DNA of 64,000 bases from Methanocaldococcus villosus KIN24-T80 (GTDB taxonomy: Archaea > AGJL01 > Methanococci > Methanococcales > Methanocaldococcaceae). Positions within the stretch are counted from its first letter, which is position 1, and every line of letters begins with the position of its first letter. The DNA lies in the NCBI RefSeq assembly GCF_000371805.1, contig NZ_AQUK01000001.1, forward strand, positions 310,001 to 374,000, read 5' to 3'. The position numbers and the translations under genes are program-made. The notes below the pieces were generated by a model. It searched no databases, was not told where the DNA came from, and saw only the letters and a list, made by a program, of their open reading frames with translations. Positions 5,180 to 32,992 of this stretch are shown here, one piece after another.

Positions 5180-5197
5180 AATTTCCCATTAGTAAAG

Positions 5198-5210
5198 TAT
5201 ATATATAAAA
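5198..5210 (+). promoter_or_regulatory. TATA element between fdhD and the SECIS-like RNA
   Basis: GTATATATATAAA lies 25-30 bases before the GC-rich RNA at 5229 on the plus strand. Read on the minus strand as TTTATATATATAC it lies about 25 bases before the fdhD start at 5179. It may drive both; fdhD would then be nearly leaderless. Confidence 0.55.
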
Positions 5211-5228
5211 TTTGGATATATTAAACAT

Positions 5229-5324
5229 CGGGGTGGGCGTGCAACGCTAACCATCTTTGGGGTATCCTACATCTACACACGTCCTCTGCTGGGAGGGAAC
5301 CCGAAAGGGACCTCCCAGCATAGG
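5229..5324 (+). ncRNA. Candidate small RNA carrying a SECIS-like hairpin
   Basis: A GC-rich island in AT-rich surroundings. A 10-bp stem TGCTGGGAGG (5287-5296) with CCTCCCAGCA (5311-5320) encloses an internal loop of GAA (5297-5299) against A (5310), then CCC/GGG closed by a GAAA tetraloop. This GAA-opposite-A core above and below short GC stems is the archaeal SECIS design and matches the fruA SECIS in this window. A second helix GGGCGTG (5235-5241) with CACGTCC (5278-5284) precedes it. A TATA box lies about 25 bases upstream and a T-rich tract follows at 5325-5336. The plus strand 5180-5320 contains no TGA, so no selenoprotein frame lies upstream. Confidence 0.65.
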
Positions 5325-5362
5325 TTTTTATTTTTTAATAGTATATATTCATACATATAAAT

Positions 5363-26606: not shown

Positions 26607-27160
26607 TTAACTCTCCTTGTTTTAATGGATGAGCGATTCAAACATAGTCCTACCCATATTTTGACCGTTTGTGTACAGTTTCCATCCTTGTTTTAATGGA
26701 TAAGCGATTCAAACAGTTTTAGAGATGACACAATGAACAGGGATAGAGGTTTCCATCCTTGTTTTAATGGATAAGCGATTCAAACGATAATATCAGTTAG
26801 TTATCCAGACTTCTTAAAGATGTTTCCATCCTTGTTTTAATGGATAAGCGATTCAAACATTATGTGGCTAGAATGAATAAAATAGCAATAGAAACAAATA
26901 ATATGTTTCCATCCTTGTTTTAATGGATAAGCGATTCAAACAAGCAAAGACGCAGCTGAGAAGTTAGAATCCAAAATGTTTCCATCCTTGTTTTAATGGA
27001 TAAGCGATTCAAACAGGATATGGATTATTTATATGAGTTTTATTACCATGGTTTCCATCCTTGTTTTAATGGATGAGCGATTCAAACATATAATAAAAAG
27101 ATCATTATTGAAAATTGTTGAAAGTTTCCATCCTTGTTTTAATGGATGAGCGATTCAAAC
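26607..27160 (-). CRISPR. CRISPR array, 8 repeats and 7 spacers, leader on the right
   Basis: The 37-bp repeats start at 26607, 26678, 26749, 26822, 26905, 26978, 27051 and 27124. Read on the minus strand they begin GTTTGAATCGC and end AAGGATGGAAAC, giving an ATGGAAAC handle of the type I style. The leftmost repeat has lost about the last eight bases of that orientation, as leader-distal repeats often do. Repeats 1, 7 and 8 read GATGAGCG where 2-6 read GATAAGCG (plus strand). Spacers are 34, 34, 36, 46, 36, 36 and 36 bases. No cas gene lies in the window. Confidence 0.97.
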
Positions 27161-29208: not shown

Positions 29209-29601
29209 ATGAGTGTTTGGCAAGGTAGAAGTAGAAGAAAACCTTCTGGAGGAATGTATAAAAAAGCTAGAAAAAAGAGAAAATATGAAATGGGAAGAGA
29301 GCCTATAGAGACACATGTTTGTAGTGAAGGAATGAAGTTAAAGATAGTTAGAGTTAGGGGAGGAAATAGAAAGGTAAAAGTTGTTAGAACAGCTTATGCA
29401 AATGTTATTGATCCTGAAACAAATATAGCTAAAAAAGTAAAAATAATAACAGTAAAAGAAAACCAAGCAAATATACACTATGTTAGAAGAAATGTTATAA
29501 CAAAAGGAGCTATTATTGAAACTGAATTAGGATTAGCAAAAGTAACTTCAAGACCTGGGCAAGATGGAACAGTTAATGCTGTTTTAATAAAAGAGAATTA
29601 A
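29209..29601 (+). CDS. rps8e: Ribosomal protein S8e
   Basis: A 130-residue small-subunit protein found only in archaea and eukaryotes. The basic start [14 protein letters not shown] and the RKYEMGREP segment are diagnostic, with the beta-rich body to [10 protein letters not shown]. It stands alone, away from the main ribosomal operon at 55.6-64 kb. ATG follows GGTGAAACATT. It converges with fruB, ends overlapping by four bases. Confidence 0.95.
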
Positions 29602-30446
29602 TGTGGAACTGGTAAATTAAGCTCTTTTCTATGCTCTATTTCTTTACTATTCTTATCTTTTTTAGTTTTAGCTAATTTTATAACAAGATCTAAACCTGGC
29701 TTAACCTCTTCTATTGGCTTTATTTCTAAGTAACCATCTTCCACCATTTTATTAAAGAATTCTTCTCCTTTTTTAGTTCTAATAAATACTGTACTCCATC
29801 CATCAGGGCTACCTACTGATCCTGTGGAGATATCTGCTAACTCAGCTGTATAATCTAAACAGACATGACAGGATGTTTGTTCATATGGATGAGTTTCTTT
29901 TAACTTTATAGCTTTTGTTTCTCCCCATCTTGTATAAACCCAGAACTTACCTTTTCCAATATCTAATTTAACAACATCATCCATCTTCACATTACAATGC
30001 TCCTCAACAATTAATTTTAAACCTTCATATGGGAAGTTCTCCATACAGAATATACCAATAATTAAAGCAATTTTATCAGCTACATGTCTAAAGCCTAAAG
30101 GATATTTTATAAGCTTTCTAACTGCTCTAACTTGACAAGGTGTCCCAACTACCCCTATTTTTTCACATCCATATTCCCTTGCAGCAGATTTCAAAACAGA
30201 TATATTAGGGCAAACACTATATTTTGTCCCTGCTGCTTCTAAAACTTCTTCAACAGTTGTAGCTACTTTAGGGTAAGGCATAAACCCATCTTTTTTGTCT
30301 GCAACTATAACCCCATCTAATAAATTGTTCTCTAAACCATATATAAAAGCTGTTGAAACAATCCCCCCATCTTGGGACTTTTTTAAAACTTCTTTTAATT
30401 TAGATCTTGCTGAAACAACTTTTATATATTTTCCAAGCTCGCTCAT
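29598..30446 (-). CDS. fruB: F420-reducing hydrogenase beta subunit
   Basis: A 282-residue FrhB-type iron-sulfur flavoprotein that reduces coenzyme F420 at its FAD with electrons from Fru[17 protein letters not shown] near residue 25, [12 protein letters not shown] and [22 protein letters not shown] with cluster cysteines match the FrhB/FdhB family. It is last in the A-D-G-B operon, separated from fruG by a single base. The related FdhB of formate dehydrogenase is excluded by the operon. Confidence 0.93.
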
Positions 30447-30447
30447 G

Positions 30448-31125
30448 TTATTCCCCCTCTATATTTTCCAAGAACTTTGGATATCTAATCCTTGGACATT
30501 GGAAAGAACATACTCCACATTTTATACATGTCTCTTTAATTACAGGCCTGCCATCTATCATCTCTATAGCTCTTGTTGGACAGGAGGCTGCACATGTTCC
30601 ACAGCCCATACACAGATCTTTATTAACAACCTCAGTTATCAAATCACATCCACATGCTTTTGTTTTCTTATCAACAAATAAGGAAAGGTAATCTACATCA
30701 TTATTCAATAAGGCTAAAATCACATTATATATTATATCAGGACTTGGAGGGCAACCAGGAATAGAAAGGTCCACATTTATAACCTCTGATAATGGAGTAA
30801 AGGCATTATGTACTGGTTTTGGCTTTTGGTTTCCTTTACAAAATCTTGTTATTCCTCCTGTAACAGCACAAGATCCAAGGGCTATAACAATCTTAGCTCT
30901 CTCCCTAACCTCCTTAGCAACTTCCAATGAGTGATGATCATCTAAACAAACAGCTCCTTCAACTATAGCTATATCACATTCAGGAATTTCTCTAACATCC
31001 ATTAATGTCTGAGAATAAACTAATTCAACCTTATCTAAAACTTCAAGTAACCTTTCATACAAATCTGTTAATGAAACTAAACATCCACAACAGCTACAAA
31101 GTTGTACATGGGCTATTTTAACCAT
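30448..31125 (-). CDS. fruG: F420-reducing hydrogenase gamma (small) subunit
   Basis: A 225-residue small NiFe-hydrogenase subunit. The proximal cluster ligands start with CSCCGC near residue 10 and continue in LGSCAVTGG and [12 protein letters not shown]. Two ferredoxin-type clusters follow: [13 protein letters not shown] and [13 protein letters not shown] in the last 60 residues. It links the NiFe site of FruA to FruB. Its start overlaps fruD by 13 bases. Confidence 0.95.
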
Positions 31126-31607
31126 TTTTTCACCTCTTCAATAACAAGATCACAAGCTCTATCTATAGCATCCTCTACCTCCTTAGAAAGCCCAATATGA
31201 ACATCTGGTTCAGAAATATATTTAGCTTGGCAGCCAATAACCTTTACTTCTATACCTTTTTTAGACAGCTCTTTTAATTTCTCAGCTAATGGATAATTAT
31301 GGATATCAATTCTATCATATCTAACATCTGGGAGCTCTTCTAAGGATAATATCTTCAACTCCCCAGGTTTTAATCCATAGTCAATTACATCCACTAATAA
31401 AACTTTTTTCACTTTAGATTCTTCATCTATTAAAGATAGAACATGTGAAGCGGCACAGCCAGCATCCAATATAGCTATTCTATCATCATTAATTTTCTCT
31501 TTTAACTTTTCAATAACATGATAGGCAAAACCATCATCAGCAAATAAAATATTTCCACAGCCAATAATTAAAATTTCTTTTTGTAAATATGAAGGATTTA
31601 AATCCAT
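31113..31607 (-). CDS. fruD: F420-hydrogenase maturation protease
   Basis: A 164-residue HybD/HycI-type endopeptidase that clips the large subunit after nickel insertion. [20 protein letters not shown] carries the Asp that senses nickel, and [13 protein letters not shown] the second metal-binding Asp. It is preceded by AGAGGGAG. The 49-base gap to fruA is almost filled by the SECIS hairpin, so ribosomes starting here must work next to that structure. Confidence 0.92.
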
Positions 31608-31622
31608 TTTCTCCCTCTAAAA

Positions 31623-31655
31623 CCCCAGGGTCCCTTTTTAGGGTTCCCCTTGGGG
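31623..31655 (-). promoter_or_regulatory. SECIS element of fruA (3' untranslated region)
   Basis: On the minus strand, directly after the fruA stop: CCCCA (31655-31651) pairs with TGGGG (31627-31623), A31650 is bulged, and GGG pairs with CCC. An internal loop of GAA (31646-31644) faces A31631, and CCC/GGG is closed by the loop TAAAAA. GAA opposite A between GC stems is the conserved archaeal SECIS core that directs Sec insertion at UGA. Confidence 0.9.
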
Positions 31656-31656
31656 C

Positions 31657-32865
31657 TTATAACATTCTTTTTTCAATAACTCTGTTATCTTCTTTAACTA
31701 TTATATGGGTTGCACATGAAGCTCATATGTCATAAGCTCTCATAATTACTTCAGCATACTGGTGAGGATAGCCTTCAATAGCTTTTTCAACTACTGGGAA
31801 GTTCCAAGTGGAAGCTGCTGTTATTGAATATCTCTTTATTTTTCCATCTTTGGTTGTTTCAGCCATGTGAACATTTGTTCCTCTTGGAGCTTCATGTATT
31901 CCAATTCCAAATCCTTCTTTGTATTCAATCTCTGCCCTTGTTTTTCCATTTATATTAACTTCATCTAATATTTCATAAGCTCTATAAACTGCTCCAAAAT
32001 TCTCTTTTGCTCTTGCTATGTTAATATCTAAAGCACTTTTTGGCTTGAATTTTCCAAATGTAATCATTCTTGCTCTAGGCCCTACTTCAACAGGACTACC
32101 ATTATATAAAGGTATCATAACAGATGTTTCTAAGCCAATCTCATTTCCATAATATCTCTGTGGAGGGATTTCAATAAATTGATCCCAATCTATTTTCTCC
32201 CTATCTCCATAAGTTGGTGATGTTGCTAAAAATGGACAGTTGTGCATTCCTAAGTTAGGAATACCACTCTCTTCCAAAAATCTCTCAACTAATGGAACAT
32301 ACTTTTCATAAAGCTCATATGCCAACTTTTCATATTCTCTTAAACCATAATAGATCTTAGCTTTAGCCCTTTCAGTAATATTATTTCTAACCCCTCCAAC
32401 AACTAAATTTGGAGGATGTATTCCTTCTCCACCAACTATATCAACTATCATTTGTCCAATTTTTCTCATTTTTTGGATGATTTTTATTAACTCAATTTTT
32501 AATTCTTCTTCACCCTCTTTAATAAAGTCATCAAGTGTTAATAAATGGTGTAATGGATGTGAATGCATCCTATTTCCTAAACCTATTAGCTCCCTCAAAA
32601 GTAACCCATCTTTTGGAACTTCACAGTTTAATGCATTTTCTATAGCTTCACATGAAGCAATACCATGGGTAGCTTGACATATTCCACATATTCTCATAAC
32701 AGCAATAGGAGCAAATTCTATAGGTTTTCCCCTTAACATGGATTCAAATCCTCTAACAGGTGTTGTATTAATGTAATAAGCCCTTTTAACAATCTCTCCT
32801 TCAACTTCCAATATCAACTTTGAATGTCCTTCATGCCTTGTAGTTGGACTTAGTTCAATTCTCAT
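31657..32865 (-). CDS. fruA: F420-reducing hydrogenase alpha subunit, selenoprotein
   Basis: The large NiFe subunit, 402 residues when UGA is read as selenocysteine. The N-terminal NiFe ligands are RICGICQATH. The C-terminal motif normally reads DPCxxCxxH; here it is DI-U-ASCATH, with TGA at 31723-31725 in frame, then 21 further residues to TAA at 31657-31659. A normal gene finder would stop at 31723 and lose the active-site end. The 21-residue tail after CATH includes the protease cleavage region for FruD. ATG at 32865 follows GTGATC; GTG at 32874 is an artefact of that site. Confidence 0.95.
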
Positions 32866-32992
32866 GATGATCACTTTTAAGAATTTTTAAGGTTATAAAT
32901 ATAATTTTAATTTAGCAAATTTATTCTAATATCTCTTTAAAAAAATTAATAAACTAAATTAAATCCTTAAATATGCTAAATGGTTATAGAAA

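Follow-up and report, generated by a model that had tools for sequence, protein, structure and literature searches.

A selenocysteine-type FruA gene and a predicted SECIS-bearing guide RNA in Methanocaldococcus villosus

A 2026 review describes all selenoprotein genes as having a selenocysteine (Sec) UGA and a downstream SECIS, and the canonical euryarchaeal SECIS, with its GAA/A kink-turn-like motif, as sitting on the mRNA of its own gene (PMC13188914). A second study states that the GAA/A motif is essential in the Methanococcus maripaludis SECIS and that the factor through which an archaeal SECIS communicates with the ribosome has yet to be identified (PMC11881835). The same study describes the fdhA1 SECIS, which lies in the 5′ UTR and is brought near its UGA by base-pairing in cis with the coding sequence. 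FruA hydrogenase subunits of the Sec type are already known: selenium labelling of the Methanocaldococcus jannaschii protein has been reported (Rother 2001, cited in PMC9622424), and two papers on FruA of M. jannaschii and Methanococcus describe a UGA at the nickel-ligand Cys, a 3′ SECIS, an FrhADGB set and Sec machinery (PMC9622424, PMC2933860). Another class to be compared here is that of the antisense guide RNAs (sRNAs, C/D and H/ACA RNAs), small RNAs that carry antisense segments to defined targets.

We analyzed a stretch of 64,000 nucleotides of the Methanocaldococcus villosus genome (the window; the genome is G000 below), which contains a fruA gene of this type and, about 26 kb away, a SECIS hairpin that has no selenoprotein gene beside it. 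The features are collected in Table 1.

Table 1. Features of the fru locus and of the predicted guide RNA, in window positions
Feature	Position	Strand	Basis
TATA-like box ~25 nt upstream of the RNA	5198..5210	+	by eye
Predicted free-standing SECIS guide RNA	5228..5321	+	covariance-model match, family conservation, fold
Guide 1, 7 nt (5230-5236) and 23 nt (5240-5262) complementary to hdrA	5230..5262	+	complementarity
Guide 2, 17 nt complementary to fwdB, 5-nt overlap with guide 1	5258..5274	+	complementarity
SECIS hairpin of the RNA, GAA opposite A	5287..5320	+	model R1 and descriptor
fruB, frhB family	29598..30446	-	above curated cut-off
fruG, frhG family	30448..31125	-	above curated cut-off
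fruD, maturation protease, frhD family	31113..31607	-	above curated cut-off
fruA SECIS hairpin, GAA opposite A	31621..31656	-	predicted fold and covariation
fruA Sec UGA codon, Sec381, nickel-ligand Cys position	31723..31725	-	TGA in 24/24 distinct loci
fruA CDS, one UGA read through, 402 aa	31657..32865	-	read-through translation, frhA equivalog, structure alignment

Translated through its in-frame TGA, fruA reads MRIELSPTT...MRAYDI-U381-ASCATHIIVKEDNRVIEKRML up to a TAA at 31659-31657, as the initial annotation of this DNA had proposed from the letters. A standard ORF caller ends the gene at 31723, giving 383 aa from a GTG at 32874, so the gene is indeed cut short by ordinary calling. The read-through product matches the NCBIfam frhA equivalog over residues 2-401 with 608.9 bits against a cut-off of 392.5, and aligns nearly full-length with the solved FrhA chains 3zfs and 4ci0. 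Residue 381 stands opposite the Cys of RAYDPCLSCATH in 3zfs, which agrees with the earlier placement of the TGA at the first Cys of the C-terminal NiFe motif. The 4ci0 chain stops at SCATH, that is, at the His of the C-terminal motif, where the maturation cut is expected. It had also been claimed that stopping at the UGA would remove the nickel ligands and the maturation site; this stands for the two C-terminal ligands (Sec381 and Cys384) and for the maturation site, but the truncated protein would keep Cys60 and Cys63 in its N-terminal part. Genes fruD, fruG and fruB adjoin fruA on the same strand, the arrangement that marks a Fru hydrogenase set, and the reading of fruA as the gene of a Sec-type F420-reducing hydrogenase is thus confirmed as an observation on the DNA.

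The codon is conserved beyond M. villosus. It is TGA in 14/14 Methanocaldococcaceae genomes examined and in 15/15 loci from named contigs, and as five contigs are common to both sets, these amount to 24 of 24 distinct loci, all of which also retain the tail past the UGA. Four Cys-type VhuA-like controls (L039, L045, L046 and L047) have TGT or TGC at the codon, and GAACC is absent 3′ of the stop in the sequence printed for these same four genes. The fruA gene of genome G003 (L033) has only 12 codons past the UGA compared with 21-24 in the other family genomes, and its tail after the motif His, IIVKKL, is very short for a maturation tail. A plasmid search with fruA gave no match.

The strongest local evidence for Sec in fruA, missed by the initial annotation, is the SECIS that begins directly 3′ of the stop codon, with the AA of the stop codon forming part of its lower stem in the predicted fold. 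In an alignment of 16 fru elements, of which 11 are distinct, pairing holds in 98.3% of cells, both sides have changed in 5 of the 11 pairs, and 0 of 500 shuffles attained the covariation score. The genome also encodes the machinery, for which a check had been proposed at the outset: all five genes sought are present, namely tRNA-Sec (73.9 bits, anticodon tca), SepSecS (pscS), PSTK (pscK), SelB and SelD. That the UGA is a genuine stop or an error, leaving FruA truncated or a pseudogene, is very improbable in our judgment, because the point in its favor, that standard gene calling ends there, is set against a TGA and following tail retained in every distinct locus, a covarying SECIS and a complete Sec machinery.

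We consider the interpretation of FruA as a selenoprotein to be supported at the sequence level. In the decoding scheme established for relatives, the UGA would be read as Sec by means of Sec-tRNA, SelB and the SECIS just behind fruA, Sec381 would take the place of the Cys nickel ligand, and FruD would be expected to cleave FruA after His387. Nothing substantial distinguishes this FruA from those of relatives; here the SECIS starts at the stop codon and the tail is 15 aa long after His387. Some further features of the genome were observed along the way. The selD gene (L061) has an in-frame TGA of its own, and its 3′ SECIS has AAA in place of GAA, opposite A. The PSTK gene (C1:377697-378407) lies 3.7 kb past the right end of the window, and a short CRISPR array of seven CRISPR-DR7 repeats occupies window positions 26678-27160 on the minus strand.

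The Rfam models SECIS_1 and SECIS_3 gave nothing useful, and since no Rfam model matched the fruA SECIS, we built a covariance model of our own (R1). It was made from 16 fru sequences out of 31 distinct elements, because MAFFT misaligned the 3′ halves of the fru and vhu SECIS, and it misses the vhuU and selD SECIS, a gap filled by a descriptor scan. R1 gave three matches in the entire genome (E up to 10): the fruA SECIS, one behind vhuD, and the plus-strand hairpin at the left of the window. The strict descriptor gave five matches in 164,002 bases on both strands, four of which are the SECIS of fruA, vhuD, vhuU and the free-standing RNA; it has false negatives, as it missed the SECIS of a Sec-type fwdB (L149).

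The plus-strand hairpin forms the 3′ end of a predicted RNA of about 94 nt. It closes a G/C-rich stretch that folds better than its shuffles (z -3.27), and it has the GAA/A internal loop between stable stems, the three apical G-C pairs and the long basal stem of a canonical euryarchaeal SECIS. Its neighbors, an fdhD-like and a reductase-like gene (named by eye), lie on the opposite strand and neither is a selenoprotein gene. No TGA was seen between 5180 and 5287 on the plus strand, and an ordinary UTR SECIS was rejected for this hairpin, as there is no UGA gene upstream on that strand. Rfam gave no match to the RNA at gathering thresholds and only implausible ones at E up to 5. Searched with the DNA of window positions 5190-5345, all 14 family genomes gave a match at E up to 0.01. 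Thirteen of them have the RNA itself, with the GAA/A SECIS intact in each, while G008 (86% complete) has only a match in hdrA. The TATA-like box is absent from the RNA locus of G011.

A second, shorter match from the same search is antisense and lies inside hdrA, and the RNA carries segments complementary to two genes, hdrA and fwdB, just past their Sec UGAs (L101 5244 and 11126, respectively). Both genes are about 450 kb away from the RNA in G000. There, guide 1 is an exact complement of hdrA over 23 nt starting 8 nt past the UGA, with the additional 7-nt block, and guide 2 is an exact complement of fwdB over 17 nt starting 27 nt past the UGA. The regions past the UGAs of fruA, vhuD, vhuU and selD, taken as control targets in G000, reach a longest complement of 5-7 nt. 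Among the family genomes for which RNA and target could both be inspected, the complement is 21-23 nt long for hdrA (12/12) and 17-19 nt for fwdB (13/13). The predicted RNA-hdrA duplex has an energy of -63.4 kcal/mol, compared with a minimum of -33.8 in 300 shuffles. The RNA-fwdB duplex reaches -38.1 and the best of 300 shuffles -38.6, so for fwdB the energy alone is not decisive. The hdrA target also stands out in codon usage, with a G/C-ending value of 0.59 versus 0.21. Of 417 sliding windows, 3 have a value this high, and all of them overlap the target; its low codon variety is matched by 10 of 417, six of them overlapping it. For fwdB, the G/C-ending value is reached by 9 of 121 sliding windows, and codon variety is not significant (78 of 121 as low). 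Complementarity at fixed distances from the two UGAs is shown at the level of the letters, and a flank that can pair with the coding sequence close to the UGA is a feature shared with the fdhA1 SECIS.

Complementarity of this kind would suit any antisense RNA, and in the published reporter study, added complementary flanks cut reporter mRNA about threefold (PMC11881835). An antisense regulator that blocks or destabilizes the hdrA and fwdB mRNAs without donating a SECIS is nonetheless unlikely in our view, since the GAA/A SECIS is intact on the RNA in all 13 genomes, both targets are Sec genes with both sites just past the UGA, and fwdB lacks its own SECIS in the genomes with a detached RNA.

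This last point comes from the arrangement of the RNA relative to its targets. Of 13 family genomes with fwdB data, 10 have the RNA module in the 3′ UTR of fwdB (G011 being in pieces), where pairing within one mRNA would be possible as in fdhA1. The cis arrangement is absent from the other three: fwdB is at C1:762768 in G000, the RNA of G003 lies 3.8 kb past fwdB beyond an oppositely oriented gene, and the RNA of G009 is on a different contig from fwdB. Within 500 nt after the fwdB stop no SECIS was found in any of these three genomes, and no cis SECIS candidate was seen downstream of fwdB in them.

The situation of hdrA is more varied. A general absence of a cis SECIS from hdrA was considered and rejected, as the descriptor finds a canonical one in 7/13 genomes, and a cis anchor of 24-28 nt occurs in six of the 13, all of them among these seven; G007 has the SECIS with a match of only 9 nt. 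Neither a descriptor SECIS nor a cis anchor was found for hdrA in G000, G003, G008, G009 and G013. In G004 there is a 12-nt anchor only and no descriptor match, since the first basal pair is, by eye, a C-A mismatch. Where hdrA has its own SECIS, the RNA would be redundant for this gene. The main caveat for hdrA is found in G000 itself, whose hdrA 3′ UTR retains a GAA-opposite-A hairpin with a poor basal stem, weak by the descriptor, that could still act in cis.

Two other observations concern the hdrA 3′ UTR. In six genomes (L104, L105, L106, L107, L112 and L113) it combines a cis SECIS with a 24-28 nt complement to hdrA itself from +36 past the UGA, directly adjoining the guide-1 site. In L093-L104 it has a hairpin of the GAUGA / (U)GA type, kink-turn-like by eye, which is retained behind hdrA even when the GAA/A SECIS has been lost.

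The genomes with a detached RNA show changes on both sides of the proposed pairing. In G003, hdrA has CCG for CCA and GTC for GTT and fwdB has GAC for GAT, all synonymous, and the RNA has three changes that match these substitutions; owing to them, its match to the hdrA of G003 is 22 nt long and that to any other hdrA 14 nt. The hdrA of G009 has GCG for GCA and its RNA the matching change, and the fwdB sequence of this genome was predicted from the RNA as CAGGATTCAGGATACCCC before being seen and was then found to be so. In G000, G003 and G009, the match between the detached RNA and the fwdB of the same genome is 17, 18 and 19 nt long, respectively, compared with 15, 16 and 11 nt for the best other target among 26 genomes. 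Trans pairing of the RNA with hdrA and fwdB is strongly supported by these sequence comparisons.

The changes also bear on whether the detached RNA is only a relic of the fwdB 3′ UTR, with hdrA and fwdB recoded instead by the weak hdrA hairpin or, on a polycistronic mRNA that also includes vhuD and vhuU, by the SECIS of one of these two genes. The genes do adjoin, vhuD and vhuU carry SECIS elements, and in a reporter a SECIS is functional when placed ahead of the coding region (PMC11881835). We find this improbable, more so than antisense regulation, as a relic would not be expected to keep changes that match its own hdrA and fwdB in G000, G003 and G009, or to keep its SECIS intact.

What is established on the letters is thus the SECIS fold, the UGA-proximal complementarity and the matched trans changes in three genomes, and from these we infer a SECIS acting in trans. 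The RNA would be transcribed as one small molecule from its own TATA-like promoter, would bind the hdrA or fwdB mRNA to form a duplex just ahead of the ribosome, and would thereby deliver its SECIS, so that Sec would be inserted at the UGA of HdrA and of FwdB. Because the two guides overlap, a given RNA molecule would be able to pair with only one of the two mRNAs at once. In the fdhA1 test, the flanking complement was dispensable for recoding and had at most a two-fold effect after normalization (PMC11881835). We regard it as quite probable that both parts hold together, a Sec at the FruA UGA and a separate small RNA in the window that would supply a SECIS to the hdrA and fwdB mRNAs in trans.

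A search across the order indicates where such an RNA may have come from. The model used (R2) is weak: at E up to 0.1 it matched 26/36 genomes, and some of its matches are just fruA SECIS, such as L137 in G008. Outside the genus, 12 loci have a guide-2-like element and a SECIS behind fwdB; the fwdB UGA was within reach in 11, and each of the 11 shows a match of 12-26 nt to its own coding sequence, including the matched anchor variants GAAATA, GAGATA, GAGGTA and GACGTA. For the guide 2-fwdB pairing over 26 genomes, 8 of 19 pair positions have standard pairs that differ on both sides. In 20/26 genomes no differing target has a longer complement than the genome's own fwdB, and in 7/26 the own complement is strictly the longest; in these counts many genomes share the same pair and kinship is uncorrected. 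The descriptor finds no SECIS in the four Cys-type fwdB-like genes (L150, L154, L155 and L158). From the self-matching fwdB anchors across the order and the lack of a SECIS in the Cys-type genes, the anchored cis SECIS of fwdB probably came before the detached RNA. The hdrA guide, the promoter-like box and detachment were seen only in the genus of the window in this survey. It seems fairly probable that Methanocaldococcus has a two-target trans guide RNA with a SECIS that would direct Sec insertion, and that it arose from a self-anchoring SECIS in the fwdB 3′ UTR, gained the hdrA guide and a promoter, and was detached in some lineages, including that of M. villosus. The second fwdB-like Sec gene of G011 (L152, C106) has a 3′ UTR whose start is complementary (~18 nt, by eye) to its own coding sequence past the UGA and is followed by a SECIS, another anchored cis SECIS.

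Compared with the described systems, the hairpin of the free RNA is that of a canonical SECIS, but in G000, G003 and G009 it stands apart from the mRNA that it would serve, and as the defining cis feature was looked for and is absent, we class the RNA not as an ordinary SECIS but only as SECIS-like in its working. It resembles the fdhA1 SECIS in that pairing with the coding sequence would bring it near the UGA, but fdhA1 is a cis system of the 5′ UTR, whereas the element here is in the fwdB 3′ UTR in most genomes and, in G000, would act in trans with hdrA as a second target. Unlike the antisense guide RNAs, whose general layout it shares, its effector part is a SECIS, the predicted outcome is the recoding of a stop codon, and it has no credible Rfam match. 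No report of a trans SECIS or SECIS guide RNA was found in a partial coverage of the literature, which is weak evidence of absence, and the fwdB cis anchor was likewise not found in print in a limited search.

The free RNA is of interest because published accounts place each SECIS on the gene that depends on it; if a guide RNA provided one in trans, a stop codon would be recoded in a new way. If our reading is true, this would be the first known stop-codon recoding signal delivered in trans by an RNA guide, the way in which a distant SECIS reaches its UGA would become directly testable as proximity through pairing, and Sec insertion that can be programmed by a guide is suggested. It also serves as a warning that Sec genes without a 3′ SECIS are not to be written off as pseudogenes.
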